Shown: piece by piece, positions 1,223 to 30,600 of the stretch | Numbering within the stretch: position 1 is the stretch's first letter | Layout of the letters: the number at the start of each line of letters is the position of its first letter | Assembly: GCA_011523505.1 (NCBI GenBank) | Contig: WTGP01000008.1 | Span: forward strand, 1 to 64,000 | DNA: 64,000 nucleotides | From: Gammaproteobacteria bacterium | GTDB lineage: Bacteria; Pseudomonadota; Gammaproteobacteria; Steroidobacterales; Foliamicaceae | Reading direction: 5' to 3' | Notes under the pieces: generated by a model | The model's input: the letters and a program-made list of their open reading frames with translations, nothing else | Told to the model about the DNA's origin: nothing | The model's database searches: none | Program-made: the position numbers and the translations under genes

Positions 1223-2209
1223 ATGGGGAGTAGCGGGTTGTTTCACGTTATCGATACCCGGCAGTTCGACCGGCCGATGCTCGACCGTCTGTGCCGCCTT
1301 GCGACCCACGTCCGGACCCTCGCGAAATCGCGGTCCGGCGCGCAAACCCTGCAGCGGCTCGCGCCCAACCGGCGCGCGATGCTCTATTTCACGCAGCCGT
1401 CCACGCGCACCTTCCTGTCCTTCAACAGCGCCTGCCATATCCTCGGCATGCAGACCAGCGAAATCCGCAATCCGTCCATCTCCTCGGAGGTGAAGGGCGA
1501 GACCTTCGAAGACAGCATCCGCACCTTCAGCTCCTATGCGGACATCATCATCATGCGCACCCCGGAAGGCGGAAAGGCCGCGCGGGCGGCCGAACTCATG
1601 GACTCCATTCCGCGCCCGGTCCCCGTCATCAACGCCGGCAGCGGACCCGATCAGCACCCCACACAGGCCCTGCTGGACATCTATACGCTGGAGCGCAGCT
1701 TCGAGCAGCGCGGCGGCATCGACGGCAGCACCATCGCCATGATGGGCGACCTGCGCCGCGGCAGGACGGTCCGGTCGCTCAGCTACCTGATGAAGAACTA
1801 CAGGGACGTTCGCCTGCGTTTCGTCGCGCCGCCGGGCTTCGAGATCAAGCGGGACATCCTCGATCATCTCGACGAGCACGGTGTCGAGTACGCGTCCACC
1901 AGCCGGCTGGATGACGTCATGGACGACCTGGACGCCTTGTACGTGACGCGGCTGCAGGAGGAATACGACGAGCAGAACGAATCGGAGAACGCCGATTACG
2001 CGTCCTACTCGATCGGTCCCGAACAGTTGCGGCGCTTTCCCTCAAACGCGATCATCATGCATCCGCTTCCGCGCGGGCCGGAACTCGACCCCGGCATCGA
2101 CAACGATCCGCGCATCATGTACTGGCGCCAGGAACGAAACGGCATGTGGATGCGGGTCGCGCTGTTGGCGGCTATTTTCGACCTGGACGGCGACCTGAAT
2201 GTGAATTGA
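1223..2209 (+). CDS. pyrB: Aspartate carbamoyltransferase catalytic chain
   Basis: Carbamoyl phosphate plus L-aspartate to N-carbamoyl-aspartate, second step of pyrimidine synthesis, cytosolic. The 328-residue product carries the family landmarks: the carbamoyl-phosphate loop PSTRT, the 80s loop SSEVKGET with its lysine, HPTQALLD, GRTVRSL, the aspartate-binding TRLQ and HPLPRGPELD. Its length suits a catalytic chain; no regulatory pyrI and no pyrC is nearby. The ATG at 1223 was chosen because the open frame upstream runs antisense through the GTPase gene. It abuts a penicillin-acylase-like gene with no gap, an unusual neighbour for pyrB; a paralogue with another amino-acid acceptor cannot be excluded. 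Confidence 0.85.
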   Translation: MGSSGLFHVIDTRQFDRPMLDRLCRLATHVRTLAKSRSGAQTLQRLAPNRRAMLYFTQPSTRTFLSFNSACHILGMQTSEIRNPSISSEVKGETFEDSIRTFSSYADIIIMRTPEGGKAARAAELMDSIPRPVPVINAGSGPDQHPTQALLDIYTLERSFEQRGGIDGSTIAMMGDLRRGRTVRSLSYLMKNYRDVRLRFVAPPGFEIKRDILDHLDEHGVEYASTSRLDDVMDDLDALYVTRLQEEYDEQNESENADYASYSIGPEQLRRFPSNAIIMHPLPRGPELDPGIDNDPRIMYWRQERNGMWMRVALLAAIFDLDGDLNVN

Positions 2210-2211
2210 AA

Positions 2212-4605
2212 GTGATAAAGAAATTAACTATTTCATTTATCACTCTGATATCAATAGTAGTTCTGATATCTCTGGCGGCCTTACTGTGGTTGCGCACCAG
2301 CAACGTTCCGACTCGCGCGGGAACCGTCGACAAGCCGATTCCGCTGGGCGTGCTGGATGCGCCGGTTACGGTCAGGAGGGACCGCTACGGGGTCCCGTAC
2401 ATCCATGCGCAATCGCTGGCGGACGCAATCCGGGCGCAGGGATTCGTCACCGCGCAGGACCGGCTGACCCAGATGCTCCTGACCCGCGAAGCGGTCAATG
2501 GCCGTCTGGCCGAACGGATCGGACCTCGTGGAGAAAGCAACGACATCCGCGTGCGAGTGCTCGGAATCCGGCAACTGGCCCGCCGGTTTGCGGCCGGTCT
2601 CGAGTCGCCCAGCCGGGAAATGCACGAGTGGTATCTCGAAGGCGTCAATGCCTACATCGGCACGCGGGCGCATGAGTTTCCGCTCGCGGTGCGCATTTCC
2701 GGGACGCCGCCGGCGCCCTACACGCTGGAGGACATCTGCGCGCACTACCTGCTCCAGGCGTACGACCTTACCGAGAACTGGCGCTCCGAGTGGCTGGCCC
2801 AGCGTCTCGTGGACCGGCTGGGACGCGAGAAGGCCGCACAAATCTCGCTCGTCAGCGTAAACCCGGACGACGGCAGCCGGTGGGCGTCGGATTACGCGCT
2901 CGCGCCGCGGGAACCGCTGGTGTCGATGCATGAGCAACCGCAAGCCGAGGCCAGCCCCGTCGGCGGCTCCAACAGCTGGGCAACGGCCGGATGGCGGTCG
3001 CGGCGGGGTGCGCCGATACTGGCCAACGATCCGCACCTCGACGCCCGCCGGCTTCCCGGCATCTGGTACCCCGTCGGCCTGATTACGCCCGAATGGCGGG
3101 CCGTCGGAGTGGCCGCGGCCGGATGGCCCGGCCTGGCCGTGGGGCGATCCGATTCCATCGCCTGGGGCGTCACCAATTCGACCGCCGATACGGCGGACCT
3201 GTTCATCGAGCGGGACGATCCCGACAACGAGGGCCACTACCTGGAAGGCCAGCTGTCCTTGCCCTACGAGGTGGTCAGCGAGACCGTACGGGTACGGGAC
3301 CCGGATTCGCCCGGCGGCCTTCGCGAGCGCACGTTCGAGGTGCGGCGCAGCCGGCGAGGGCCGGTCGTTTCCGATACCCTGATCGAGGATGCTCACGGCC
3401 GCTCCCTGTCGCTTCGCTGGAGCGTGGCCGAGAACGTCGGCAGCCAGGTGGGCGTCGATCGATTGATGCTGGCGAAGGATGTCGCCGAAGCCGGCGAGGC
3501 CATCCGCGACATCGTGGGCGCGCTCAACTACAACGTGGCCGATACCCGGGGAAATATCGCCCACTTCACCTCCGGCCATGTTCCCGTCCGACTGAGGGGA
3601 GACGGCGCAATTCCGCTGCCGATAACGGGCGGAGAGGACAACTGGACCGGGTTCGTTCCCTTCGAACGGGCGCCCTCGACGATCAATCCGCAAAGAGGCT
3701 GGGTGGGCAATGCCAATCACCGGACAGTCGGCGCAAACTTCGACGGCATGTGGAGCAGCTACTCGGCCCCTTCCTGGCGCTACAGGCGCATGCTGGAACT
3801 GTTCGACAACGAACTGGTGTTCTCGGCCGAAGACCACTGGTCGGCGATCACCGATACCGGAAACACGCTGGCCCGCGACCTGGTCCCGCTGTTCCTGCCG
3901 GCCCTTGAGGCCGCCCCCGAAACGCAGCCGGCCGCGGACGTTCTCAGCGGCTGGGATTATCGCGACGACGCCGGGAAGGCCGCACCCGCGCTGTTCCAGT
4001 TGATGCTCCGCGCGCTCGTAACCCGTATCTTCGCCGACGAACTGGATACCCTGGTCTCGAGTTATGAGGGCTCTCCCTATTTTTGGCAGGAACGCGTTTA
4101 TTCGATGCTGGAATCCGGGGCATCGGACTGGTTCGACAACATCAATACCCCGCAAACCGAAAGCCGGGACGACCTGGTTCGGGGCGCGGCGCTGGATGCC
4201 TGGCGGCAACTTGAAGCGAGTCTGGGCGGGAACCCGCGCGACTGGCGCTGGGGCGATATCAGCCGGCTCAGGATTTCCAGCCCCCTCCCGACGGCCAACA
4301 GGTTCGTGAACCGTCTGTTCGGCGGCGGCGATTTTCCGCGCACCGGGTCCACGGAGACCTTGTGGGGGTCGTACGGCAGCCCGTCGTACGGCGCCTGGGC
4401 GATCGATTCGCTGCGCTTCGTGGCGGATCTCGGCGATCCGGACAAGGTGCTGGCAGTCATTCCCGGCGGCGTCAGCGGACGCCTGTTCGATCCGCACCTG
4501 AACGACCAGCTTCCGTTGTGGCTGTCCGGCGAAATCAACTACTGGTGGTTCTCCGACCAGGCCATCAGCGTCAATGCGCGCAGGGAAGTCACGCTGGCGC
4601 CGTGA
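2212..4605 (+). CDS. Penicillin acylase family Ntn hydrolase (first of tandem pair)
   Basis: An S45-type amidohydrolase: a precursor that cleaves itself before a serine, which then becomes the N-terminal nucleophile that hydrolyses amide bonds (penicillins, acyl-homoserine lactones or other N-acyl compounds in known members). A single hydrophobic anchor or signal (residues about 7-27) places it in the envelope. The processing site is GG/SNSW, nucleophile Ser253. Length about 797 residues matches the family. The start is uncertain: TTG 2206 or GTG 2212, both touching the pyrB stop. The first 65 bases are strikingly AT-rich (ATA and TTA codons) compared with the rest of the gene. It is closely similar throughout to the next gene. 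Substrate unknown. Confidence 0.9.
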   Translation: MIKKLTISFITLISIVVLISLAALLWLRTSNVPTRAGTVDKPIPLGVLDAPVTVRRDRYGVPYIHAQSLADAIRAQGFVTAQDRLTQMLLTREAVNGRLAERIGPRGESNDIRVRVLGIRQLARRFAAGLESPSREMHEWYLEGVNAYIGTRAHEFPLAVRISGTPPAPYTLEDICAHYLLQAYDLTENWRSEWLAQRLVDRLGREKAAQISLVSVNPDDGSRWASDYALAPREPLVSMHEQPQAEASPVGGSNSWATAGWRSRRGAPILANDPHLDARRLPGIWYPVGLITPEWRAVGVAAAGWPGLAVGRSDSIAWGVTNSTADTADLFIERDDPDNEGHYLEGQLSLPYEVVSETVRVRDPDSPGGLRERTFEVRRSRRGPVVSDTLIEDAHGRSLSLRWSVAENVGSQVGVDRLMLAKDVAEAGEAIRDIVGALNYNVADTRGNIAHFTSGHVPVRLRGDGAIPLPITGGEDNWTGFVPFERAPSTINPQRGWVGNANHRTVGANFDGMWSSYSAPSWRYRRMLELFDNELVFSAEDHWSAITDTGNTLARDLVPLFLPALEAAPETQPAADVLSGWDYRDDAGKAAPALFQLMLRALVTRIFADELDTLVSSYEGSPYFWQERVYSMLESGASDWFDNINTPQTESRDDLVRGAALDAWRQLEASLGGNPRDWRWGDISRLRISSPLPTANRFVNRLFGGGDFPRTGSTETLWGSYGSPSYGAWAIDSLRFVADLGDPDKVLAVIPGGVSGRLFDPHLNDQLPLWLSGEINYWWFSDQAISVNARREVTLAP

Positions 4606-4627
4606 AATTCACCCGAGGAAGCCTCGA

Positions 4628-7027
4628 ATGCTGAAGAAAATCGGAATCGCGCTCATCGCCCTGCTGCTGGTGATTGTGCTGGCCGCAGCCGCGGGCATCG
4701 CCTGGCTCAGGGATAGCAATATCCCGGAGCGTCACCGCGACGTCGGCGACGCAGCGGTCCTGGCGATGCTGGAAGACGAAGTGCGCGTGAAGCGGGACCG
4801 GCAGGGAGTCCCCTATATCTACGCGGAGACGCTGGCCGACGCCTTGCGCGTTCAGGGTTTCGTCACGTCCCAGGACCGCCTGTCGCAGATGCTGCTGACC
4901 CGCGAGCTGATCAACGGCCGGCTGTCCGAACAGATCGGGGAGGCCGGACTGCGCAGCGATACGCTGATCCGGGTCATGGGCCTCAACTGCATGGGGTCAG
5001 TCTGGGCGGCCCAACTCGAATCGCCCAGCCGCGAACTGCATGAATGGTTCCTTGAGGGTGTCAACGCCTACATCGCGACGCAGGCCGACGAATTTCCGCT
5101 GGCCGTGAGGCTTGCCGGCGAGGCGCCGGCGCCGTTTACGCTGGAGGACCTGACGACGCAGTACCTGTTCCTGGCGTTCAACAGCACGGGAAACTGGCGC
5201 ACCGAAGTACTCAGCCAGGCGCTGGTCGATCACCTCGGCGCGGCGAAGGCGGCGGAAATCTCGATGCTGACGGTCAACCCGGACGACGAGAGCGAATGGG
5301 CATCGGACTACAGCCTGGCGAAGAACAGCATGCCGACGGGGGGCCCCGCGAGCTTCCCCGAGCTGCCCGAGCCGGCGGATGGCTCCAACAGCTGGGCCAC
5401 ATCGGCCCGTCGGTCGGCGGGCGACGCGCCGATCGTGGCCAACGACCCGCACATCGACGTACGCCGCCTGCCCGGCATCTGGCATCCGGTGGGCCTGATC
5501 ACACCCGAATGGCGGGCGGTGGGCGCAGCCGGCGCGGGCCTGCCTGGACTGGGTGCGGGGCGCTCCAGCCACGTCGCCTGGGGCATAACCAATGCCTATT
5601 CCGACGTCGCCGACCTGTTCATCGAGCGGGATGATCCGGACCGGCCGGGACACTACCTGGAAGGGGAACAGTCCGTTCCGTACCGGATCGTGGAGGAAAT
5701 CATTCGCATACGCGACCGCAGCGCGCCGGACGGCTACCGCGAACATCCCTTGACGATTCGACATACGCGGCGCGGCCCGGTCATTTCCGATCACGGCCTG
5801 ACCGGAGGCGACGGCCGCGTGTATTCGCTGCGCTGGAGCATGGCCGAGAATATCGGCAGGCAGGTGGGCATCGAACGCGTGATGCTCGCACGCGATACGT
5901 TCGAGGCCGCCGAAGTCATTGCACAGATCAACGCGCCGTACAACTACACGGTAGGGGACACGAAGGGAAACATTGCGCACTACACGGCCGGCCAAGTGCC
6001 GGTGCGGCGCCGGGGCGACGGAGCGCTGCCCCTTCCCGTCGTGGACGCCGTGGACGACTGGCCGGCGTTCGTGCCCTTCGCCCGCGCGCCCACGTCCATC
6101 AACCCGCCGCGGGGATGGGTCGGCAACGCCAACCACCGCACCGTGAGCGGAGATTTTGACGGACACTGGACCAGCTACGTAGCCTCCTCCTGGCGCTACC
6201 GCCGCATGCAGGAACTGTTCGACGGCGACGGTGCGCTGTCGGATGCCGACCACTGGTCGGCGATCAACGACACGCTCAATCCCATGGCCAGGGGCCTCGT
6301 CCCGATCATGATCCAGGCCCTGGAAGGGCAACCCGAAACGCGGGACGCCGCCGCGATGCTGGCTGACTGGAACTTCCACGACGAGCCGGAGCTGGCGGCG
6401 CCGGCCCTTTTCCAGGCGATTATGGCCAGCCTTGTGCGGCGCATTTTCGAGGACGAGCTGGGCGAGGCGCTGACGCGGCAATACACACGCGACATCTACT
6501 ACTGGCAGGAGCGCGTGTACCGGATGCTGCTGGCGGGCGAGTGGGAGTGGTTCGACGACACGCGCACCGAGGTCGTGGAGGGCCGCGACGACCTGCTTCG
6601 CGCCGCGGCGCGCGACGCCTGGTCCGAATTGCAATCGCGACTGGGCCCCGATCCGTCCGCCTGGCGCTGGGGAGAATTGAGCCGGTTCCGGTTCAGCAAC
6701 CCCTGGGTGCCCGGCGAACTGGCGGATCGCCTTCTGGGCGGCGGGGACTATTCCGGCCGAGGGTCCGGAGAAACGCTGGGCCGCGCGCGGTTTCCGGGAT
6801 TGGGGAACTACGATCCCCGGGTCATTGATTCACTGCGTTTCGTGGCCGATCTCGGCGACCCCGACAAGGTCCTGGCGGTCATACCCGGCGGCGTCAGCTC
6901 ACGCCTGTTCGATCCGCACCTGAACGACCAGCTTCCCGCGTGGCTGTCGGGCGACATCGGCTACTGGTGGTTCTCCGACGCCGCCATCGCCGCCGACACG
7001 CGGCAGGAAATGACGTTCAAGCCATGA
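4628..7027 (+). CDS. Penicillin acylase family Ntn hydrolase (second of tandem pair)
   Basis: A 799-residue paralogue of the preceding acylase, 22 bases downstream in the same direction. It has an N-terminal hydrophobic anchor (about residues 5-27), a prepeptide, and the self-cleavage site DG/SNSW with Ser253, the same residue number as in its neighbour. Shared blocks include the DRQGVPYI/DRYGVPYI region, LFIERDDPD, GWVGNANHRTV, SLRFVADLGDPDKVLAVIPGG and RLFDPHLNDQLP. Divergence between the two copies suggests an old duplication and possibly different acyl preferences. It overlaps the next gene by ATGA, so translation is probably coupled. Function as an amide or lactam hydrolase is a family inference. 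Confidence 0.9.
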   Translation: MLKKIGIALIALLLVIVLAAAAGIAWLRDSNIPERHRDVGDAAVLAMLEDEVRVKRDRQGVPYIYAETLADALRVQGFVTSQDRLSQMLLTRELINGRLSEQIGEAGLRSDTLIRVMGLNCMGSVWAAQLESPSRELHEWFLEGVNAYIATQADEFPLAVRLAGEAPAPFTLEDLTTQYLFLAFNSTGNWRTEVLSQALVDHLGAAKAAEISMLTVNPDDESEWASDYSLAKNSMPTGGPASFPELPEPADGSNSWATSARRSAGDAPIVANDPHIDVRRLPGIWHPVGLITPEWRAVGAAGAGLPGLGAGRSSHVAWGITNAYSDVADLFIERDDPDRPGHYLEGEQSVPYRIVEEIIRIRDRSAPDGYREHPLTIRHTRRGPVISDHGLTGGDGRVYSLRWSMAENIGRQVGIERVMLARDTFEAAEVIAQINAPYNYTVGDTKGNIAHYTAGQVPVRRRGDGALPLPVVDAVDDWPAFVPFARAPTSINPPRGWVGNANHRTVSGDFDGHWTSYVASSWRYRRMQELFDGDGALSDADHWSAINDTLNPMARGLVPIMIQALEGQPETRDAAAMLADWNFHDEPELAAPALFQAIMASLVRRIFEDELGEALTRQYTRDIYYWQERVYRMLLAGEWEWFDDTRTEVVEGRDDLLRAAARDAWSELQSRLGPDPSAWRWGELSRFRFSNPWVPGELADRLLGGGDYSGRGSGETLGRARFPGLGNYDPRVIDSLRFVADLGDPDKVLAVIPGGVSSRLFDPHLNDQLPAWLSGDIGYWWFSDAAIAADTRQEMTFKP

Positions 7028-9666
7028 AGCGTTTCCTGCTACCCGCGGCGGTCCTCGCCTGGCTGTTGGCCCCGGCCCCGCTCGCGTACGCGCAGGATGC
7101 CGCCGGCGAACTGCCCTGCGACACCGGCCTGTACGAAATCAGCGCGGACCACGAAGGCGCGCGCGCCAATGCCTGCCGGGTCTTCAATCCGCGCGGCGTG
7201 ATCCTGACCATCGATCCGGAGGATCCGCCCCCGATCAACCCCAGCCCCTGGTTCGGGTTCCACGTTCGCCCCAGGAACGCGAACGAGCAGGGCACCGTCG
7301 TGGTCACGCTGCGCTACTCCACCAGCCGGCACCGCTACGCGCCCAGGACCAGCGTTGACGGGCGGGAGTGGACCCCGCTGCCGGAGCGCCAATGGCTGGT
7401 CCACGAAGACGGCCGCGCGACCATGGAACTCAAACCCGGCGCGGAGGGGCTGTTCGTTTCGGCCCAGGAAAACCTCGGGCGGGGCTTCTACGAAGAATGG
7501 CGCCGCAGCACCGCCGAGCGTTTCGAAGGACTGCAGTGGCGCAGCATCGGCGAATCCACGGGAGGACGCCCGATTTTCGCGGCCGAGACGGCTCCCGGCG
7601 CGGCCAACTACCTGCTCTTCATCGGCCGTCAGCACCCGCCCGAGGTCCCGGGCGCACTGATGTTCAAGGCTTTTGCCGAACGGCTGCTCGAGGACCGCTC
7701 AGGAGCCTGCGACGACCCGTCCTCGGCGAAGTGCGCGTTCTATTCCGGGCACAGCCTGGTTTTCATACCCAACCTCAATCCCGATGGGGTCGCCCTGGGC
7801 CACTGGCGGCACAACCTCGACGGCACCGACCTGAACCGCGACTGGGGGACTTTCGCGCAGCCCGAGACGCAGGCCGTCCGGAACCTGGTCGACTCGCTGG
7901 AAGAAAGCGGAAGAACGATCGCCGTCATGCTGGATTTCCACTCGACCTGGCGAAACGTGTTCTATGTCCCGACCCTTAAGGATGCGACCCGCCCGCCGGC
8001 GTTCGTCGCCCGCTGGCTGCGCCTGGCCCGTGCAAGCGGAGACGCCTACGCGTTCGAGCGGGCGCCGCGGTCCTCGGAAGACACGGCGATTGCCAAGAAC
8101 TACTTCTATCGCCGCTTCGGCGTGCCGGCAATCACGGTCGAGACGGGCGACGATACGCTCAGGGACGAGATCGCCGCCACCGGTCCCGTCCTGGCGGACG
8201 CGCTGGTTGCAGTGCTGGGGGGCGGGAACGGCCCCCAGGGGCGCCGACGCGGCGCGCTGTGCCCCGATTTCTTCTGCTACATGGCCGAGGCGAACAAGGC
8301 ATCGCTCGTGATGCTCCTGGAAGAGGGTCTGGTGGACCGCGGGCAGGCGGAGAAGATCGCCGGCGCGATGATGCAATTGCATGCCGAGCAGGAGGCCGAA
8401 GGCGCCAGGCGGACAGCGAACTACCTGCCCTACGAGGAGCGCCTGATCGAACTGGCCGATGAGGAAGTGGCCAATCTTCATCTTGGACGCTCGCGCCAGG
8501 ACCTCCACGGCGTGGTACGGCGAATGTTGATACGCGACCAATGGCTGGCGTTGGCCAACGGTGCGTTGCAAGCCCGCGCCGCTCTGCTGCGCCTGGCGGA
8601 ACAGGAGGCGACAACGCCGATTCCCGCCTACACGCATGGCGTTCAGGCGCAGCCCACCACGCTGGGTCATTACCTGCTGGCGTTTTCGGCCAGCCTGGAA
8701 CGCGACCTGCAGCGCTTCCGCGAGGGTTACGCCCGCATGAACCGGAGCCCTCTGGGCGCAGCCGCGCTGGGGACCTCGGGTTTTGCACTGGACCGCGAAA
8801 GGCTTGCGGAACTGCTGGGCTTCGACGCTCCGGTCGAGAACAGCTACGACGCCAATCTGGTTTCGTCCGGCGACCTGCGGCGGGAGCTCGCCGGCATCCT
8901 GTCCCTTTCGGCGGTTCCCATCGGCCAGCTCGCCGAGAACCTGCACACCCAGTACCACAATCCCAGGCCGTGGATCCTGCTGGACGAATCCTCTGTCGCC
9001 ATCAGCACGATCATGCCGCAGAAGCGCAACCCGCGGCCGCTGGACCGGGTGCGCAGCCAGGCCAGCCGGGTGCTGGGCGGCGCGCAGACGGAAGTGCTTC
9101 TCGCGCACAACACCAACACCGGAATGCACGACTACCGGGACATCGCACCGATCATGGAGCTGGCGGACAAGGCCAGGCTGATGTACCGCCGCTACGAGCG
9201 GCTCATCGGACTGTTGCGAATCGATCGTGAACGGGCACTGGAAGAACTTCAGCGCGGGTATTCGACCATGACCGAAGTGGCCGACATGCTGGTACGGGAA
9301 GCCGGCCTGCCGTTTCGCACGGCCCATGGCTACGCCTCGGCGCTGACCGACTACGGGCGCGCGCACGGACGCTCGCCGGATTCGCTGACCGACGAGGAAC
9401 TGCAAAGAATCTACCGGGAAACCATGGGCGGCCGGTTGCCGGTTCCGATGGAAACGCTGCGCCGGGCGATGGATCCGGTGGCGATGCTCGCCGATCGCAG
9501 GGGTTCGGGCGGACCCCAGGCCGCCGAGGTGCAGCGTATGCTTGGCCGTCACCGCGAGTCCCTGGCCGCCGACCGGCAATGGCTGGGCAAGGCCAACGAG
9601 GACCTGCTCGCGGCATTCATCGATCTGCACACGGCGTTCGCGGAAATTGCGCCCTCCGAACGGTAG
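7024..9666 (+). CDS. Exported M14 zinc carboxypeptidase fused to an argininosuccinate lyase-like domain
   Basis: A single 880-residue open frame joins two enzymes. Residues 1-24 form a signal peptide (hydrophobic core ending APLAYA-QD). Residues about 30-400 are an M14 metallopeptidase: zinc ligands H204xxE207 and H306, DLNRDW from 269, catalytic Glu373 in VETGDD. After a Gly/Arg linker (about 400-413), residues 414-880 resemble argininosuccinate lyase: HLGRSRQD (486-493), YTHGVQAQPTT (536-546, probable catalytic His538) and STIMPQKRNP (661-670, with the catalytic-loop serine at 661). ASL is normally cytosolic; here export to the periplasm is predicted. It overlaps the acylase stop by ATGA and is followed by a TonB receptor. 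Domain calls are firm; the substrate and the benefit of fusion are unknown. Confidence 0.85.
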   Translation: MKRFLLPAAVLAWLLAPAPLAYAQDAAGELPCDTGLYEISADHEGARANACRVFNPRGVILTIDPEDPPPINPSPWFGFHVRPRNANEQGTVVVTLRYSTSRHRYAPRTSVDGREWTPLPERQWLVHEDGRATMELKPGAEGLFVSAQENLGRGFYEEWRRSTAERFEGLQWRSIGESTGGRPIFAAETAPGAANYLLFIGRQHPPEVPGALMFKAFAERLLEDRSGACDDPSSAKCAFYSGHSLVFIPNLNPDGVALGHWRHNLDGTDLNRDWGTFAQPETQAVRNLVDSLEESGRTIAVMLDFHSTWRNVFYVPTLKDATRPPAFVARWLRLARASGDAYAFERAPRSSEDTAIAKNYFYRRFGVPAITVETGDDTLRDEIAATGPVLADALVAVLGGGNGPQGRRRGALCPDFFCYMAEANKASLVMLLEEGLVDRGQAEKIAGAMMQLHAEQEAEGARRTANYLPYEERLIELADEEVANLHLGRSRQDLHGVVRRMLIRDQWLALANGALQARAALLRLAEQEATTPIPAYTHGVQAQPTTLGHYLLAFSASLERDLQRFREGYARMNRSPLGAAALGTSGFALDRERLAELLGFDAPVENSYDANLVSSGDLRRELAGILSLSAVPIGQLAENLHTQYHNPRPWILLDESSVAISTIMPQKRNPRPLDRVRSQASRVLGGAQTEVLLAHNTNTGMHDYRDIAPIMELADKARLMYRRYERLIGLLRIDRERALEELQRGYSTMTEVADMLVREAGLPFRTAHGYASALTDYGRAHGRSPDSLTDEELQRIYRETMGGRLPVPMETLRRAMDPVAMLADRRGSGGPQAAEVQRMLGRHRESLAADRQWLGKANEDLLAAFIDLHTAFAEIAPSER

Positions 9667-9696
9667 TTGGGCGGCTGCCCGCTATCAAGCTAGAAT
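9667..9696 (+). promoter_or_regulatory. Candidate sigma-70 promoter for the TonB receptor gene
   Basis: TTGGGC (9667-9672), an 18-base spacer and TAGAAT (9691-9696) directly after the fusion gene stop. A GGGAGGT ribosome site precedes the ATG at 9724. The TAGAAT box recurs upstream of several other genes in this window. Confidence 0.5.
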
Positions 9697-9723
9697 CCGT
9701 TTCTTACCCGGGAGGTAGGCACC

Positions 9724-12700
9724 ATGAATGAACGCACCAGGTTCGCGGTCTGCGCGGCTCTTTCCCTGTACTTCGCAAGCAGCGTCAGTGCAATCGCGCA
9801 GGACGCCCAGGATGGCGACAGCGACGAGCCCGAGATGGAGGAAATCGTCGTAACGGGCAGCCACATCAGGGGCGCCAACATTACCGGAGCGCTGCCGGTT
9901 TCGGTGATCGGCGCCGAGGAAATCGAAGCAACCGGCGTGGATTCGGGAGACGACCTGATGCAGTTCATACCCGAGCAGGGTCAGAACTTCTTCAACGAGG
10001 CCGAGAACATCAGCGGCGGCGTCAATTCCGCCCGTGGCGATATCGGCGCCTTCAATCTTCGCAGCCTGGGCACCGGCAACACGCTCGTGCTCTTCAATGG
10101 CCGCCGGGTCGTGAACGCCGCCAGCTTTCAAACCGAGGAAGTCGGCGGCAGCTTCGTCCCCGTCAATACGGCAAATACGCAGACAATTCCCATTTACGGC
10201 ATGGACCGGCTGGAAATCCTGAAGGACGGCGCATCCGCGTTGTATGGGGCCGATGCGGTCGCAGGAGTGGTCAATTACGTAGTCAGGGACGACATCGACC
10301 ATTTGCGGGTTTATTTGCGTTACGGCTCGTACGACAACGTGGGCAGGAAGACCCAACGCGTTGCACTGGAGTGGGGCGACTCCTTCAACGGAGAGCGGAC
10401 CCGCGTAGGCGTCCTGGCCAACTATTACGTTCGCGACCGCATCAGTGCGCATGAAGACGAGCGCTGGGCGGATGCGGACTTCCGCCGGCGCGTGCCGGCC
10501 GACTCGCCCTGGGCGGGAGATACACGATTTCGCAACACCAGCGCCAACTCCCTTTACGGGCAGTTCGACGTGCGCGCGAGCGCACGCAGTACCGGTCTGC
10601 GGAACGTGCTGACGGATTCCGCCGGCGAATTCCAGGTATATCCCCAGGGCCATGAGGACTGTGACTGGGATCTCGGCTATGGAAGCTGCGGGGCGATCGA
10701 TGGCGATCCGATCTACCGGCGCAACCTCAACGCCACCCGCGATCTCTCTTCGGACCTCAAGCGGGGCAATATTTATTTATTCCTCAACCATGAGTTCGAG
10801 AACGGCATGGAGAGCTTTTCGGAAGCGCTGTACTACATGTCGGACACGCACCTGTACCGGCACGCTTCGGCGTCGTTCAGCACGGTCAAACTGAGGGTCG
10901 CCGCGCAGAACTACTACAACCCATTCGGCCCGTGCGGATCTCCGAATCGCCTGCCGGACAGCATTCTGCCGAGCCAGGTGCCCTGCGAGGGCCTTGAGCT
11001 GGAAATCGACAACTACCGCTACCATGAATTCCCGAGGATCGTGGAAAACGACGGCAACGTCGTGCGCCTGCTTACGGGTCTCAGAGGCCAGGCCGGCCGT
11101 TGGGACTGGGAAGGCGCGGTCGTCTGGTCGCGCGCCCAGAAGGATGACCTGACCCGCAACCGGGTATCCAACCTGTTGATGGTGGAGGCCCTTTCGGACC
11201 CCACTCCCGCAGCCTACAACCCCTTCAGCGGCGGCGTGAACAGCAATATCGAGCGGGCCCTGGTGGATGTGTACCGCAACAACGAGACGACGCTTGCGAT
11301 GGCCGACTTCCAGGTCTCCACGCCCGAACTCTTCAATCTGCCCTGGGGGCCTGCGGGCGGAGTGGCCGGGATAGAGTTCCGGCGCGAAACCTTCGAGGAC
11401 GATCGCGATCCCCGGCTTGACGGAACCCACGTTTTCACCGATTTCCAGGGAGATACATTTCCGTACGTGTCGGACGTGGTCAACTCCAGCCCTACGCCCG
11501 ACAATGAAGGCAGCCGAAACGTCACGTCGTTTTTCACGGAACTGCAGTTGCCGCTGATGAACAATGTCGATGTCCAGCTGGCGGCGCGTTATGAGAACTT
11601 CTCGGACGTGGGCAGCACCGTGGTGCCCAAATTCGCCATCGGCTGGCAGATTGTGCCGGCGGTGCTGTTGCGCGGATCCTGGTCGGAAGCGTTCCGGGCC
11701 CCGAACCTGATCACGATCAACGAGGTCATCGTGGCGCGGCAGAACACCCGCAACGACTACGCCTGTGTCTATGCGGCCGAGAACGGCGGCGATCCGGAAC
11801 AGGACATCATCGATTGCCGGAACAGCACGCAGCGTATTGCGCAGGGCAGCAAGCTGCTGGAGCCCGAGCGCTCCAACAACTACTCCTTCGGCATCGCGGT
11901 GCAGCCGACGGACTCGCTAACACTCACGCTCGACTGGTGGTCCATACGCAAGGAAGACACGATCGGTCTGCTTGGCGAGGAAAACCACACGGTGCTGGAC
12001 CTGCTGGCGCGCCTGCAGCATGGCGGCGGCAACTGCGGCGGCCTCAATGCCAACCCGGCGGTCGTGCGCCAGGGGGCCGAAACACTCAACGACGACGAGG
12101 CGGCAATCTACCAGGCGGCGGGGATCTGTCCTGCCGGCCTGATCCGCTACATCGACGACAATTACGTCAACCTCGACACGCGGACGCTCAAGGGCTGGGA
12201 TGCAAGTCTGCGCTATTCGCTGGAAACAGGAATCGGCGACTTCAGCCTGACTTATCTGGCCTCGTTTCTGACCAAGTTCGAGCAGGTTCCAGGCGGCAGG
12301 GCTGCCGAGCTGGTCGCGGCAAAGGATGCGGGAACTATTCCGGCCAGCATTCCCGTGTCGGGATTCGCCGACCTGCTGCAAAAGGACGGCAACCAGAAGG
12401 TCCGCCAGACGTTGTTCCTGTCCTGGCGCCGTGCGCCATTCCGGGTAGGCCTGTCGGCCCGAAACCTCGGGGACTTCTACCAGAATTCACTGACGCTCGA
12501 CGACGGCAGCCTGTACTGGATCCCGTCGGTGACGACCTGGAACGGCACGTTCGACTACAACTTCGAAATGGTCGACCGCGACTGGCGGCTGCGCTTCGGA
12601 GTGAACAACATGTTCGACGAGCGGGCGCCTCTCGCCGACCGCTATTTCGGCTTCTTTGCCGACGCCCACCAGGGCATCGAGTACGGACGGAACTATTACT

Positions 12701-12729
12701 TGCAGTTGCGGATGACGCAGGGCGACTAG
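9724..12729 (+). CDS. TonB-dependent outer-membrane receptor
   Basis: A 1001-residue active-transport porin powered by TonB-ExbBD. Visible features: signal peptide (about 1-25), TonB box EEIVVTGSHI, plug domain with LFNGRRVVN, RLEILKDGASALYGADAVAGVVNY-type plug signature, and a long beta-barrel ending in an amphipathic strand. Cysteine pairs in probable loops (for example near CDWDLGYGSC) suggest disulfide-bonded extracellular loops. It lies 57 bases after the peptidase-lyase fusion in the same direction, with its own promoter and a strong Shine-Dalgarno. From context it may import the substrate or products of the upstream envelope enzymes; the ligand could also be a siderophore or peptide. 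Confidence 0.93.
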   Translation: MNERTRFAVCAALSLYFASSVSAIAQDAQDGDSDEPEMEEIVVTGSHIRGANITGALPVSVIGAEEIEATGVDSGDDLMQFIPEQGQNFFNEAENISGGVNSARGDIGAFNLRSLGTGNTLVLFNGRRVVNAASFQTEEVGGSFVPVNTANTQTIPIYGMDRLEILKDGASALYGADAVAGVVNYVVRDDIDHLRVYLRYGSYDNVGRKTQRVALEWGDSFNGERTRVGVLANYYVRDRISAHEDERWADADFRRRVPADSPWAGDTRFRNTSANSLYGQFDVRASARSTGLRNVLTDSAGEFQVYPQGHEDCDWDLGYGSCGAIDGDPIYRRNLNATRDLSSDLKRGNIYLFLNHEFENGMESFSEALYYMSDTHLYRHASASFSTVKLRVAAQNYYNPFGPCGSPNRLPDSILPSQVPCEGLELEIDNYRYHEFPRIVENDGNVVRLLTGLRGQAGRWDWEGAVVWSRAQKDDLTRNRVSNLLMVEALSDPTPAAYNPFSGGVNSNIERALVDVYRNNETTLAMADFQVSTPELFNLPWGPAGGVAGIEFRRETFEDDRDPRLDGTHVFTDFQGDTFPYVSDVVNSSPTPDNEGSRNVTSFFTELQLPLMNNVDVQLAARYENFSDVGSTVVPKFAIGWQIVPAVLLRGSWSEAFRAPNLITINEVIVARQNTRNDYACVYAAENGGDPEQDIIDCRNSTQRIAQGSKLLEPERSNNYSFGIAVQPTDSLTLTLDWWSIRKEDTIGLLGEENHTVLDLLARLQHGGGNCGGLNANPAVVRQGAETLNDDEAAIYQAAGICPAGLIRYIDDNYVNLDTRTLKGWDASLRYSLETGIGDFSLTYLASFLTKFEQVPGGRAAELVAAKDAGTIPASIPVSGFADLLQKDGNQKVRQTLFLSWRRAPFRVGLSARNLGDFYQNSLTLDDGSLYWIPSVTTWNGTFDYNFEMVDRDWRLRFGVNNMFDERAPLADRYFGFFADAHQGIEYGRNYYLQLRMTQGD

Positions 12730-12738
12730 CGCGGACCG

Positions 12739-12763
12739 GCTATCCGCCGGCCGCGCGGATAGC
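12739..12763. terminator. Hairpin between convergent genes
   Basis: GCTATCCGC (12739-12747) and GCGGATAGC (12755-12763) form a perfect 9-base stem with a 7-base loop at the meeting point of the receptor and ATPase genes. It overlaps the last codons of the ATPase gene and lacks a U-tract, so it is a possible bidirectional terminator rather than a clear intrinsic one. Confidence 0.45.
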
Positions 12764-13588
12764 GTCCGCCACCAGGTCCACGAAGTCCGCTTCGTTGCGA
12801 ACGCCCTGCGCGTCCCGGGCGGGAACCGTGTAGCCGTGCTCCCTGGCCACGGCGGCATACAGGGGCCGGCGGTGAGCGATCAGGCGCGGAAAGGCCCATA
12901 GCGTGAAGTCGTCGGGCGAGGCCTTTTCGATGTCGTCGAGGTTCCGTTCCTTCAGGAATTCAGGCAGCGAGCGCTGGAGGAATTCAGGCGAGTAATACAT
13001 CGGCTTGGGTTCCTTGCGGGCCCGCTCCACCAGCTTTTCCTCGTCCTCGGCCGAGGCCTCGAGATACAGAATCACGGTGTGCTCGATGAGCGTCTCCACC
13101 GCGCCCCTGTCCCCCAGTTCGCAGATGCTGCCGCCGGCGTCATTCACGAAGTGCATGTAGCCGTAGATGCGCTCGGCCTTCTCGATGAACGAGGCCACGT
13201 CGCGCATCGCCCTGGCTTCCGCGTCGCGGTGCAGCTCCTGCCGCCGCCGGAACTCCTTCAGCGGCAGACCGCCCCGCTCGGGATCGCCCAGCTTGCCGAG
13301 GAAGGTGGAGATGGGGCGCAGGTTGTGCACGGTGATGTTGCTTTCGATGTAGATGGAATCGCTGCGAAGCAGGTTGCGAAGAAAGGGCACTTCCATGGCG
13401 CGCAGCTTGATGTTGTCGAGTATCGGTTCGCGCAGATACTGGGTGCCGATGCGGTAGTCGCCGGAGTAGATGAACCAGCGGGTCGCGGGCAGGCGGTTGG
13501 CGAGCACCGTCTTGCCCACGCCGGACATGCCCATCAGCGTGACGGACTTGCGCGGCGCGTTTCTGAACTCTTCAGCCGGCATTCGCAT
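12740..13588 (-). CDS. P-loop ATPase/kinase-like protein of unknown role
   Basis: A 282-residue cytosolic protein with Walker A GMSGVGKT at residues 20-27. Downstream sequence contains a charged helical stretch (LPLKEFRRRQELHRDAEARAM) and an acidic segment; no clear transporter or helicase signature is seen. The fold resembles small nucleoside or shikimate kinase-like P-loop proteins, but the phosphate acceptor cannot be assigned. It converges on the TonB receptor gene, separated by 10 bases, and is divergent from the peroxiredoxin gene. I do not recognise a named family. Confidence 0.6.
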   Translation of the reverse strand: MRMPAEEFRNAPRKSVTLMGMSGVGKTVLANRLPATRWFIYSGDYRIGTQYLREPILDNIKLRAMEVPFLRNLLRSDSIYIESNITVHNLRPISTFLGKLGDPERGGLPLKEFRRRQELHRDAEARAMRDVASFIEKAERIYGYMHFVNDAGGSICELGDRGAVETLIEHTVILYLEASAEDEEKLVERARKEPKPMYYSPEFLQRSLPEFLKERNLDDIEKASPDDFTLWAFPRLIAHRRPLYAAVAREHGYTVPARDAQGVRNEADFVDLVADAIRAAGG

Positions 13589-24965: not shown

Positions 24966-27653
24966 TTGAGCGCGCCTTCCTACCAGCAGATTCTCGAACA
25001 GGACCTTTTCCCCGCACTGCGGGAGGGCGCCCTGGCCGTGACCGCCACCGGCAGACTGGCGCGGAGGATACGTTTTCGCTACGGCCGGTGGCGCCGCGCC
25101 GCGAACGCAACCGTGTGGCGTCGACCGGCCGTGATGTCGTGGCAGGAATGGATGCGCCGGTTGTGGGAGGACTCGCTGCTGCGCGGCGGAAAGGCCGGCG
25201 AATACACATTGCTGTCTTCCCACGGATCGCTGATGCTCTGGGAGCAGGCGGTCGGGAAGAACGCGGTGGCCGGCTTCGACCTGGAACAGAACGCGGAACT
25301 GGCCCGAAGAAGCTGGAACCTGGCGCTCGAATACGGGCTGAACCTCGAGCGCCTGCGCGGCGAGGTAGACGGGGAAGACGAGCGCCGCTTCGCCCGCTGG
25401 GTCGCGCGCTTCGAGGAACTGCGCCGATCGGGCAGCTGGCTGGAGCCCGCGGGGCTCCCGCCACTCCTGACTCAGGATCTGCAAAGCGGCGCGATCGCCG
25501 CGCGCGGGCCGCTGTATCTGCTCGGTTTCAACGATCCGGTCCCGCCACCGCAAGCCCAGCTGCTGGAGACCGTACGCTCCGCCGGTATCTCCGTGGAGAA
25601 GGGCCCGCGTGCAGCGAGGGCGGCAAACGTCTGTCAGATCCAATACGAAAACGGGGACGAGGAACTGCAGGCCGCGGCAAGCTGGGCCGTTGAAGGCAAC
25701 GCCGGTCTGGTGCTGGTCGATTTCACCGAACGTGCACCCCGCGCGCGCCGGGCGTTGCTGGACCGCATGCAGCCGGCCTGGCAGACGCGCGGGTTCCCGC
25801 AGGACGCTCCGCTGAACTCCGCCGAGGCGCCTTCGCTGGGACATGTGGGACCGGCTGAAATGGCCCTCGACGCGCTGTGCCTGTTGCCGACCGTGGTGGA
25901 TTTCGAAGTGGTCAGCCGGGTGCTGCGCGGCGCCTACCTTCAGGGTTCCGACGCGGAAGCCGGCGGGCGCGCAAGCGTGGAGCGGCGGATACGGGAAAGA
26001 CTGGTCGGGGGCGAGATTACCCGCACGCAACTGATGGCGCGCGCCCTGTCCGGCGCGCCGCTGCTTGCACAGGCGCTGCAGAAGGCATGGAAGGCGTCCC
26101 GAAAGGCCCGCGGAAAGGGCAGGGCGCACTCCTACCGCACCTGGGCCGGCGTATTCACGACCTTTTTGCGAGAACTGGGCTGGCCGGGCGACAGGCCGCT
26201 GGTCAGCAGCGAGCAGCAGGCAGTGGAAGCCTTCGGCCGGTTGCTTTCGGAGTACGGCGGCTGCGACGCCGTTTCCGCAAGGCCCGTACCCCTCTCCGCA
26301 GCGCTCTCGCGCCTGGGCACGATGGCCCGGGACCGCAAATTCCAACCCCAGGGTCCCGACCAGGCCGTGGAACTCCTGCCGGTCGAGGAGTCGGCCGGTT
26401 TGCACTTTGATCGATTATGGGTGGCGGGCGCGGGCGCAAACCTGTGGCCACGGGGGATCCGGCCGGCGCCCCTGCTTCCTCTCGGATTGCAACGGCGTAT
26501 GAAGATGCCCCAGGCAAGCGCGCAGACGGCACTGGAACAGGCCCGCCGGCAAACCGAAGCACTGCTGCACGGCGCCGACGAAGTGGTGTTCAGTTGGTCG
26601 AAGGTTGCGGAAGAAGGCGTGGAGACCAGCTGCAGTCCACTCATCGCCCGGGTTCCTCTGCGCGACGCTCCAAGCGTGGCGGAGGCGGGTGCGGGCGCTG
26701 CTTACGTCGAAGTCCTTCGCGCCGGCGCCTCGCTGGAGACGCTCACCGACGATGCCGCGCCTCCGCTTGCGGCGGATGAAGTGGTCGGCGGCGGTACGCG
26801 CCTGATGGACCATCAGCTCAGGAACCCGTTTCGCGCGTTTGCCGAGCATCGGCTGCACGCGGCCGAATACCCAAGGCCGTGGGACGGAATCAGCCCGCTG
26901 GACCGCGGGGACATCGTGCACAAGCTCCTGTGCCGGCTCTACACCGAGTTCGGGGACGCCGCCTCACTGGCCGCCGCCTTGCCCGACCTGGCGCCCCGTC
27001 TTGAGGAATGGGCGGCGGAAATCCCCAGGAAGGAACCGCCGGGAATCCGGCCGCTCGTGCTGGGGCTGCTGCGGATGGAACGCGAGCGGGCCGTGCTGCT
27101 TGCCCTGGACTGGGTCCGTCTCGACCTTGAGCGCGGAGAATTCAAGGTCCGGGAACTGGAGGAACTGGCGCAACTGGACCTGGGACCCGTCACGCTGCGG
27201 ATGCGGCTGGACCGGGTCGATCAATCGGCATCCGAGGCGGGGGCACTGGTGCTGGATTACAAGACCGGGCGGGAAATACCGCTTTCGGGGCTCAACCCGG
27301 AACGTTTGCGTTCCAGCCAGCTTCCCGCATACGCGCTGGTCACGCCGGACGTGTCCGGCGTCGGCTACGTATTTCTTTCCGGAAAACAGCGAACGGTGAA
27401 GGGCATTTGCGATCCGCATGCCGATATTCCGGGCAAGGAGAAGCTGCCGAAGCTGACGCCCATTTCGAAGCACCGCGATTTCAGGCATTACGCTAGCTGG
27501 GAAGAAGTCCTGGCGGCCTGGCGCGAAGCATTGGAAAAGGCGGCGCTGGACCTGAGCCGGGGCGATGCGCGCGTCGAGATTTTTTCCTGGGATGATGGCG
27601 GTCGCGGGCAGTACCAGGTACTGAGCCGCATCCAGGAGCTGGAGCAGGCATGA
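24966..27653 (+). CDS. AddB-like nuclease subunit (putative DNA repair protein)
   Basis: An 895-residue protein of the AddB-related family that pairs with a RecB-type helicase for double-strand-break end processing. The C-terminal PD-(D/E)XK nuclease has HKLLCRLY and VLDYKTG with Asp764 and Lys766. The Walker A motif of true AddB is not evident, as in the inactivated-helicase members. Translation starts at TTG 24966, and the stop overlaps the ATG of the helicase gene, consistent with a stable complex of the two products. Confidence 0.82.
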   Translation: MSAPSYQQILEQDLFPALREGALAVTATGRLARRIRFRYGRWRRAANATVWRRPAVMSWQEWMRRLWEDSLLRGGKAGEYTLLSSHGSLMLWEQAVGKNAVAGFDLEQNAELARRSWNLALEYGLNLERLRGEVDGEDERRFARWVARFEELRRSGSWLEPAGLPPLLTQDLQSGAIAARGPLYLLGFNDPVPPPQAQLLETVRSAGISVEKGPRAARAANVCQIQYENGDEELQAAASWAVEGNAGLVLVDFTERAPRARRALLDRMQPAWQTRGFPQDAPLNSAEAPSLGHVGPAEMALDALCLLPTVVDFEVVSRVLRGAYLQGSDAEAGGRASVERRIRERLVGGEITRTQLMARALSGAPLLAQALQKAWKASRKARGKGRAHSYRTWAGVFTTFLRELGWPGDRPLVSSEQQAVEAFGRLLSEYGGCDAVSARPVPLSAALSRLGTMARDRKFQPQGPDQAVELLPVEESAGLHFDRLWVAGAGANLWPRGIRPAPLLPLGLQRRMKMPQASAQTALEQARRQTEALLHGADEVVFSWSKVAEEGVETSCSPLIARVPLRDAPSVAEAGAGAAYVEVLRAGASLETLTDDAAPPLAADEVVGGGTRLMDHQLRNPFRAFAEHRLHAAEYPRPWDGISPLDRGDIVHKLLCRLYTEFGDAASLAAALPDLAPRLEEWAAEIPRKEPPGIRPLVLGLLRMERERAVLLALDWVRLDLERGEFKVRELEELAQLDLGPVTLRMRLDRVDQSASEAGALVLDYKTGREIPLSGLNPERLRSSQLPAYALVTPDVSGVGYVFLSGKQRTVKGICDPHADIPGKEKLPKLTPISKHRDFRHYASWEEVLAAWREALEKAALDLSRGDARVEIFSWDDGGRGQYQVLSRIQELEQA

Positions 27654-30600
27654 CCGCGCCCGGCGACCAGGCGGTTCGCGAACGTGCGCTGCACCCGGAG
27701 CGCTCGTTCATCGTGCAGGCGCCGGCCGGCTCCGGCAAGACCGAGATTCTTGTCCAGCGCTACCTGCGCCTGCTGGGGCGCGAGGCCGAGCCCGACGCGG
27801 TGCTGGCGATCACCTTTACGCGCAAGGCGGCCGCTGAAATGCGCGAGCGCGTGGCCCGCAGCCTGCGGGAGGCCGCTTCGGACAACAAGGACGTGCCGCC
27901 TCACCGCCAACGGAGCCTTGAGCTTGCGCGGCGCGTGCTTGAGCAGTCCCGCAAGCGCGGCTGGGACCTGCCGGACAATCCCGCGCGCCTGCGCATCATC
28001 ACCATCGACTCGCTGGGTTCCTGGCTGGCGGCGAGTTCCCCGGTGTCCAGCGGCGGCGGAGCGCTGGGCAACTTGCGCGCCGACGCGGTCCCCCTCTACG
28101 AAACGGCCGCCCGCATGCTGCTCCATGACGGCATCCGGCTTGGGGACGAGGATGTGCAGACCCTGCTTCGCCACCTGGACGGAAGCGGGCAGCAATTCAC
28201 CGAACTGGTCGCCGGAATGCTGGCCAAGCGCGAACAGTGGCTGCCGCTGCTGGGAGCGGGGGACAACGCCGCGGCGCTCAATGCCGCGCTGCGCAATCTC
28301 GCAGGCCGTGAAATCGGCCGGATGCTTCAATGCCTTGGGAAATATCGCGGCGAATTCGAGAAGGCCTTTGCCGATTACTGGGTAGCCGACGATGAGCCGG
28401 AAGACCCCGCCGACCCCGACGCGCTTGCGGGATGGGGTCGCGCGGCGGACGACCTGCTCACGCTGAAGAACGAATGGCGCGTGCGGTTCAGGAAGCAACT
28501 CGGCGAAAAACTGCAGCAAGCGCTCAGAGGGTCCGGCGAATTTCAGGAACGATTGTCCCGCCTCAGGATTCTCGAGTCGCCGGGCTACGAAGCGGCCCGT
28601 CTGCGACTGGTGCAGTCGGTCATGCGCGTATTGCGCGGCGCATTTGCGCAGTTGAAGGTGCTGTTCGCGCAGCGCAGGGAAACCGACTACACGGAAGTCA
28701 GCCAGGCGGCGCTCAAGGCCCTGGGCCACGGCGACCGGCCATCGCTGCTGGCCGAACGCCTGGATACGCGGCTGCGCCACATCCTGATCGACGAGTTCCA
28801 GGACACCTCGCGCACCCAGCTCGACCTGCTCCAGCAGATGACTCGGGAATGGCAGGACGGCGACGGCCGCACCGTGTTCATGGTTGGGGACCCCATGCAA
28901 TCCATATACGGATTCCGGGAGGCCGACGTGCGCGGCTACCTCAGGGTGTGCGAACAGGGGCTGGCGGGCCTGCGGCCCGAACTGCTCCGGCTGACCGTGA
29001 ACTTCCGATCGACGCCGAAGCTGGTGGACTGGTTCAATACGGTTTTCCCCAGGGTATTCCCGGCCCAGGGCGACACGCTGCTGGGCACCGTGGCCTACAC
29101 GCCCTGCGAGCCCGCACCCGGAGCAAAGCCCGCGCCCGAGGCGAATCCCGGACACGCCGATGCCCGGCTTCACTACTTCCGCAAGGGCGATCACGAGTCG
29201 GAGGTAGCCATCGTCGAGCGGATTGTCCGAATGACGCTTGAGGACCGTCCCGACGGGACCATCGGAATCCTGGTCCGCAGCCGGACCCACGGCGAGGAGG
29301 TGAGCAACGCGCTGGGCAGGACCGGCATCGCGGTCAACCGAACCGAGTTCGAGCGCCGCAAGCGCTTCAGCGTGGTGCAGGACCTGGCCGCGATCGCCCG
29401 CGCGCTGGCGCAACTGTCCGACCGGATCGCCTGGCTGGCTGTCCTGCGCGCTCCGTGGTGCGGGCTTTCGCTCAAGGATTTGCACGCGCTTTGCCACGAT
29501 GCCCCGCGCGAAACGGTCTGGGACATGCTGCGCGACTCCGGGCGCATCGGCCGGCTCAGCAGTGACGGGCGCAAGCGCCTGGCCCGGGTCGTCCCGGTGC
29601 TCGAGCGGGCGCTGCGCCTGCGCGGGCAACTGGACTTTCGAAGCTGGGTGGAAGGGACCTGGCTGGCTCTGGGCGGTCCCGCGGGCAACAGCGACGAGAA
29701 TTGCCTGCGTCACGCGGCCGAGTTCCTCGACAGTCTCTCCGAAACCAGCCAGGGAAGTCAGATCGACAACGCGGTTGCCCGCACGCTCAAACTCACGGAC
29801 GAATTCGTGTCCAACCCGGAGACCGGCGCGCGCGTGCAGATCCTGACCATGCACAAGGCCAAGGGCCTGGAGTTCGATACCGTGATCCTGCCGGGGCTGG
29901 GACGGGACATCCGCGGCGGACGCGCGCCGGTGCTGCGCTGGTGGCAGCCGCCGCCCGGCGAGAACTGGTTGCCGGCGGAGGAGGGCGCCGCCACCCTGCT
30001 GGCCGTGCCTCCCTCGCGGCGTAGACAGGACTCCGACCCCGTGTACGAATACCTGGACAAACTGGAGAAGGCCCGTGAGGATGCCGAGCGGAGGCGGCTC
30101 CTGTACGTGGCGGCGACGCGCGCGCGCACCCGCCTGCATCTGCTGGTGGGCCTGGTCCGGGACGAGGAGTCGGAAGGCCCGGGGGAATTCAGGCCTTCGG
30201 CGCGGACCATGGCCGCGGACCTTGCGGAGGCTCTCAGGGAACTATTCGAGCGGGAGGCCCCCGCGGAACTCCCCGCAAAACGCAGGAGCGCGAGGAAACG
30301 GCGATTGGTGAAACCGGAGATCCGGCGCGTGCCCGACGGCTGGGTGCCGCCCGAGCCCCCGGCGCCCATGATCGCACCCAGCCCGGAGGAAACCCGGTCG
30401 CCTTCGTACGTCTGGGCCGGCGAAAGGGCGAGGGTGCTGGGCCTGGCGGTCCACCGCTGGCTTCAGGAAATCTCCGAAGAAGGACCCGGCGCCTGGCCGC
30501 GCGAGCGCCTGGAAACGAAACGCCCGCGCACTCGGCGGATGCTGCAGTTTCACGGCGTGCCGGCGGACGAACTGGAATCACTGACGACGGACGTTGAAAT

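Follow-up and report, generated by a model that had tools for sequence, protein, structure and literature searches.

Nameable known members of the aspartase/fumarase superfamily of lyases are, to our knowledge, cytoplasmic enzymes of core metabolism. Three lyases of this superfamily bear closely on the present work: argininosuccinate lyase (ASL; ArgH), the EDDS lyase of Chelativorans sp. BNC1 (PDB 6g3d-6g3i), and 2SL, a class I lyase that splits N-acetyl-S-(2-succino)cysteine (N-acetyl-2SC) into N-acetylcysteine and fumarate and whose pathway further requires a deacylase (PMC9706529). Here we describe a related lyase encoded in a 64,000-nucleotide stretch (the window; positions 1 to 64,000 of contig WTGP01000008.1, assembly GCA_011523505.1) from a gammaproteobacterium of the Foliamicaceae. 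It is predicted to be exported, it is fused to an M14 zinc carboxypeptidase, and its gene is followed by that of a TonB-dependent receptor (TBDR). Literature searches returned no description of an M14-lyase fusion or of a periplasmic lyase of such a kind. We put at about one half the probability that the receptor and the exported fusion import and dismantle a capped, acidic compound, probably a succino adduct, in the periplasm, with release of fumarate.

The fusion gene (7024..9666, forward strand; PF00246 and PF00206/PF14698) encodes a signal peptide and an M14 domain of the cytosolic carboxypeptidase (CCP) type in its first half (7024..8253; assigned from PF00246, motifs and the structural model) and the lyase in its second (8254..9666). 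It is followed on the same strand by its partner, the TBDR gene (9724..12729; PF00593, PF07715). When 84,980 species genomes were scanned with the lyase domain, 75 loci emerged; the patterns used favour the motif IPAYTHGV, so that the edge of the family is unevenly sampled. Record titles of the loci name bins of uncultured gammaproteobacteria, and from the bin names several appear to be sponge-associated. The fusion is found in an uncultured member of the Pseudomonadales (locus L070), where identity to the window is 49% for the M14 domain and 63% for both the lyase and the receptor, and in a third group (L078-L081, L088, L138-L140) with about 45% identity in the lyase and 59-66% in the receptor. 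In these two groups the receptor follows the fusion each time, the flanking genes are different, and neither pyrB nor an acylase gene, both of which precede the fusion in the window, is present. Wherever a fusion locus extends far enough, the receptor is the next gene, with the exception of one genome of the window's genus (G005). The M14-lyase fusion and the TonB receptor behind it form the conserved core; at least three lineages, differing in their flanks, keep the two linked. The 11 fusions included in a phylogenetic tree form one branch (100/100 support): the fusion arose once. Because the next-best TBDR in the genus is only 38% identical, as against 59-66% for the fusion-linked receptors of other lineages, the receptor is an orthologue that travels with the fusion. 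This second receptor (G003 C2:275815-283600, locus L168; G007, locus L169) lies between a D-aminoacylase-like gene and a gamma-glutamyltransferase gene, forming a parallel uptake locus.

The lyase half has a PF00206 domain, the catalytic SS loop and the conserved Lys and Asn of the superfamily. Its active site looks intact, with the SS-loop Ser, K667, N669, R491 and the Thr and His of the YTH motif all retained; the first Ser of the SS pair we take to be the catalytic base, as in FumC and delta-crystallin. Both by sequence and by AlphaFold model (mean pLDDT 83.8) the nearest solved relative is EDDS lyase, the best structural match (Z 38.4 over 460 residues, 2.4 A), followed by argininosuccinate lyases. 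The predicted fold, the loop SS(T)IMPQK.NP and, presumably, the fumarate-releasing chemistry of the superfamily are shared with EDDS lyase; however, identity is only ~30%, and the window lyase is exported, fused to a carboxypeptidase and adjacent to a TonB receptor. 2SL, as described, is likewise a class I lyase that releases fumarate from a succino adduct and works with an N-deacylase, but its loci encode an ABC importer and its description does not mention export.

ArgH shares the fold and the superfamily, and relatives of the window lyase are annotated as argininosuccinate lyases. Nevertheless, an ArgH paralogue can be rejected: the score against TIGR00838 is 239.2 bits (cut-off 279.5), and motifs and tree disagree with it. 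In each of the 75 loci, GRSRQD takes the place of the RSRND motif found in ASL and EDDS lyase, and the YNKDLQEDK segment of ArgH is replaced by HN...GM.DYR. The genome has a separate ArgH in an arginine cluster. In the tree the GRSRQD family is separate with 100/100 support, although the EDDS branch is long and its exact placement unsure. The lyase belongs to a family of its own, and the fusion with its TonB receptor represents an exported branch within the ASL/EDDS-lyase group.

Six residues lie close to the substrate in EDDS lyase: R112, N113, Q159, N288, D290 and Y320 (PMC12363623). Two of these, R112 and N288, are kept in the window lyase, while the other four are changed (N113Q, Q159H, D290R and Y320D), and on these grounds a true EDDS lyase is rejected. 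The position of D290 is occupied by Arg in 20 of the 20 readable exported proteobacterial loci, by Gly in the Acidobacteriota member, and by Ala or Val in nearly all others, which include the cytoplasmic lyases. From the Arg in the exported branch we infer that the leaving group there carries a negative charge. These changes, one of them a charge reversal, also bear on the use of an aminopolycarboxylate chelator, such as an EDDS-, iminodisuccinate- or aspergillomarasmine-like metallophore, whereby the receptor would import the metal chelate and the lyase would destroy the chelator and free the metal. Having EDDS lyase as the nearest fold and nearest solved sequence is in keeping with such a role, as are the FecI/FecR-type regulators and DadA-like oxidases encoded beside unfused relatives of the lyase. 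Set against this, besides the altered residues, the receptor falls under every siderophore-receptor cut-off (45.5 bits against TIGR01783, for which the cut-off is 223.5), no metal transporter is linked, and compounds of this sort need neither peptidases nor acylases. We consider it improbable.

The M14 half has the complete set of motifs for zinc binding, carboxylate binding (NR) and the catalytic Glu (HxxE, RHN, LNR, H and TVETG), and its model matches 4b6z, 4a37 and CCP5 with Z of 28-32, reaching about 32 for 4b6z and 4a37. It resembles CCP5 and the bacterial CCP-type carboxypeptidases (4a37, 4b6z, 3k2k) over the whole domain, including the zinc- and carboxylate-binding motifs, but differs in that it is exported and joined to a lyase. 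The CCP enzymes have a known role in removing acidic residues.

Further insight comes from relatives in which the lyase is not fused. At loci L071-L076, from Woeseiaceae/Chromatiales-like gammaproteobacteria, the lyase stands alone as a protein and has a signal peptide of its own. Around it lie varying subsets of genes for the same type of receptor (51-56% identity), an unfused M14 protein, an ECF sigma factor with FecR, a dehydrogenase of D-amino acids resembling DadA, a dicarboxylate symporter of the DASS type and a lipoprotein-like relative of N-acyl-D-amino-acid deacylases. In two of these loci a Rieske domain fused to a glutamate-synthase-like FMN domain is encoded directly upstream of the exported lyase (L071:8329-9942 and L073:8295-9908). 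In G023, which belongs to another family of the same order, the receptor gene is divergent from a pair of gamma-glutamyltransferase genes and the gene of an exported lyase, which an assembly frameshift splits; an M19 dipeptidase is encoded on the other side. Genomes G012 and G051 have the receptor, a DadA-like enzyme and M14 without the lyase, and in G014 M14 adjoins a DadA-like gene. Enzymes for stripping N-terminal caps, C-terminal residues and acidic groups are the recurring theme of these neighbourhoods. As for the corresponding genes in the window's genus, no match to the D-aminoacylase of the sister clusters was found at E <= 0.001 in G000, G004 or G005; DadA-like matches in the genome reach only 31-33% and are located away from the fusion locus; and a DASS protein scoring above cut-off is present in the window's genome.

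The order in G023, where an exported lyase, two gamma-glutamyltransferases and an M19 dipeptidase recall the mercapturate-type processing of glutathione conjugates, raises the question of succinated-thiol salvage. Here an S-(2-succino)cysteine compound (S-succino-glutathione, an S-succino-peptide or N-acyl-2SC) would be stripped by peptidases and acylases, and the lyase would yield fumarate and a cysteine derivative, the chemistry of 2SL acting on N-acetyl-2SC (PMC9706529). Yet gamma-glutamyltransferase and M19 accompany the lyase in one locus only, 2SL is classed under cd01334 and not with ASL, and no cysteine or sulfur gene is linked. This specific substrate is, on balance, unlikely.

A broader possibility is that the system serves general peptide scavenging, the TBDR, M14 enzyme and acylases taking up and processing small peptides with D-residues or gamma-glutamyl bonds (for example peptidoglycan fragments) while the lyase handles a side product only. 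D-aminoacylase, DadA-like dehydrogenase, gamma-glutamyltransferase and M19 recur near this type of receptor even where the lyase is missing. However, the fusion of the lyase to M14 happened once and many lineages have kept the lyase, and at several loci the exported lyase stands beside a TBDR without a linked M14 gene. General scavenging is somewhat doubtful.

Beyond the exported proteins, cytoplasmic GRSRQD lyases are widespread in betaproteobacteria (L083-L137), several of them near binding proteins of the tripartite-tricarboxylate (Bug) type. Plasmid-borne relatives with 37-42% identity in Agrobacterium, Paracoccus and Caballeronia have no neighbours in common; such plasmid relatives are annotated as argininosuccinate lyases, probably wrongly, and one in Cupriavidus metallidurans is unannotated in its record. 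The matches examined at 33-36% lie mostly beside ABC transporters and are probably other families. Seven loci (L091, L112, L113, L120, L131, L137 and L141) come from metagenome-assembled genomes titled 'Bordetella parapertussis' but resemble those of environmental Burkholderiales, and the titles look doubtful.

In the window the fusion and receptor genes are the last of five rightward genes. They are preceded by pyrB (1223..2209), for the catalytic chain of aspartate carbamoyltransferase (ATCase), and by the genes for acylase 1 (2212..4605) and acylase 2 (4628..7027), all on the forward strand; the successive junctions are +2 bp, +22 bp, a 4-bp ATGA overlap and +57 bp. A hairpin scan, which is weak evidence, found no terminator-like hairpin at the gene junctions, and the fusion and receptor genes probably share a transcript with pyrB and the two acylase genes. 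The close spacing described in the initial annotation is borne out by these coordinates, and the families guessed there (a carbamoyltransferase, two acylases, a peptidase-lyase fusion and a TonB receptor) agree with the domain search. So does its view that three of the four enzymes carry export or anchor segments: maxima of hydropathy over 12 residues are 3.0 for acylase 1, 3.7 for acylase 2 and 2.4 for the fusion, and 0.7 for ATCase, so that hydrophobic segments open both acylases and the fusion but not ATCase. One small correction concerns its picture of dismantling: ATCase forms a C-N bond and does not break one.

The two acylases are tandem paralogues (58% identical) of the penicillin amidase family of Ntn-hydrolases, with PF01804 scores of 579 and 545 bits; acylase 1 has an N-terminal anchor or signal. 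Each has a GSNSW autoproteolysis site, cleaved between G and S, at position 2965 in acylase 1 and 5381 in acylase 2. This Gly-Ser site and the Ntn-hydrolase family are common to the PvdQ-type acylases (PF01804) and to the D-succinylase 7eby; the latter is simply the nearest solved relative, that of acylase 1, and the window acylases differ in being accessory to their locus. Identity as acyl-homoserine lactone acylases of the PvdQ kind can be dismissed, with NF051460 scores of 34.8 (acylase 1) and 19.1 bits against a cut-off of 950. An antibiotic or acyl-homoserine lactone had been suggested as substrate, but no result of the analysis points there. Acylase 1 is absent from two genomes of the genus (G004, G006) and acylase 2 from one (G004), and neither was seen in the fusion lineages outside the genus. 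Both acylases are accessory.

The initial annotation had allowed that the carbamoyltransferase might simply be housekeeping pyrB, and this is the view that holds. The protein (PF02729/PF00185) passes the ATCase model TIGR00670 with 257.6 bits (cut-off 236.95) and has the motifs STRT, VKGE, HPTQ, GRT, TRLQ and HPLPR for the binding of carbamoyl phosphate and aspartate. The genome, which is 95% complete, contains two OTCace matches; since the second is located between argD-like and argB-like genes, pyrB, itself complete, is the sole ATCase gene. PyrB is 85-98% identical within the genus and 66-67% identical in G009 and G023, from other families of the order. In the stretches read on either side of pyrB in these two (~6-10 kb) the other genes of the run are absent, and in G023 pyrB and the lyase/TBDR locus are unlinked. 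pyrB is thus an ordinary housekeeping gene, probably a bystander and no part of the import module.

Across the eight other genomes of the genus that were compared (G001-G008), the stretch from pyrB to an opposite-strand open reading frame (ORF) of 282 amino acids varies in content. The full set of genes is found in the same order in four genomes (G001, G002, G003 and G007), and in G005 it is also complete, with the receptor lying 18 kb farther along. Both acylases are missing from G004. In G006 a single acylase is accompanied by an intact M14 gene which stops exactly at the start of the lyase domain, the latter having been lost; its receptor gene contains one internal TAG, which may be real or an artefact of assembly. 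In G008, where two contigs meet inside an acylase, the contig ends show acylase sequence only; a genome-wide search likewise turned up no orthologue of the fusion or the receptor. The 282-aa ORF (12740..13588, reverse strand), without a Pfam or NCBIfam match, is 80-96% identical in the genus and forms the right edge of this island wherever the edge was read. A single dedicated five-gene pathway that includes the carbamoyltransferase might be supposed from the tight spacing and the order kept in four genomes. The genome-wide search and synteny largely refute it, however, given that pyrB is complete and the only ATCase gene, that it is unlinked to the TBDR and lyase in G023 and G009, and that island content ranges from one acylase to the full set. 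It is very improbable, and the five genes are not one pathway. The idea of an import-and-dismantle system, when followed across relatives, survives for the fusion and receptor, whose linkage is conserved, is plausible for the variable acylases, and fails for pyrB.

Elsewhere in the window, an Abi_C (abortive-infection C-terminal domain) protein is encoded at 32972-33772 on the reverse strand in a dip of GC content (0.57 against 0.65; third-position GC 0.49) and was probably acquired recently. At 24966-30949 on the forward strand, a PD-(D/E)XK nuclease adjoins a UvrD helicase whose C-terminal domain is also a nuclease; the two resemble the AddAB recombination pair.

For the fusion and receptor, a conserved linked unit, the additions in related loci (deacylases, gamma-glutamyltransferases, a dipeptidase and a dicarboxylate symporter) fit a system that takes in and breaks down a small acylated or peptidic molecule. 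The receptor would bring a scarce, small, capped, acidic compound into the periplasm. There the N-acyl cap would be taken off by exported amidases, the PF01804 acylases in the window and apparently a D-aminoacylase-like lipoprotein or gamma-glutamyltransferases in the sister clusters. From family chemistry and active-site residues, the M14 domain would then trim a C-terminal, probably acidic, residue, and the lyase would remove an N- or S-linked 1,2-dicarboxyethyl (succino) group by beta-elimination, yielding fumarate and an amine or thiol. Fumarate may enter the cell through a C4-dicarboxylate symporter of the DASS type, as encoded in the sister clusters.

Several observations weigh against this scheme. 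The acylases are not conserved with the fusion-receptor core, and M14 and the TBDR persist without the lyase in G006, G012 and G051, so some versions of the system can do without the lyase; this would also suit general peptide scavenging. Neither a metal-uptake partner nor a FecI/FecR pair was found beside the fusion, in the window or in the genus, and no partner genes recur consistently beside the cytoplasmic relatives in beta- and alphaproteobacteria. Finally, fumarate as the product is read from the superfamily, and related enzymes, XcbC for example, have changed chemistry.

We tentatively propose, as something short of an even chance, that an exported aspartase/fumarase branch beside a dedicated TonB receptor acts in the periplasm on succino adducts brought in from outside, either succinated thiol peptides or aminopolycarboxylates, and frees fumarate from them; in one lineage the lyase would do so joined to a carboxypeptidase in a double enzyme. 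If this is true, the secreted branch points to an environmental pool of succino compounds, be they succinated thiols or chelators, that is harvested by bacteria. Such a branch would also help to trace uptake by marine and sponge-associated bacteria through uncharacterised TonB receptors. For substrate screening the locus supplies a defined enzyme whose expected product, fumarate, can be followed by UV absorbance.

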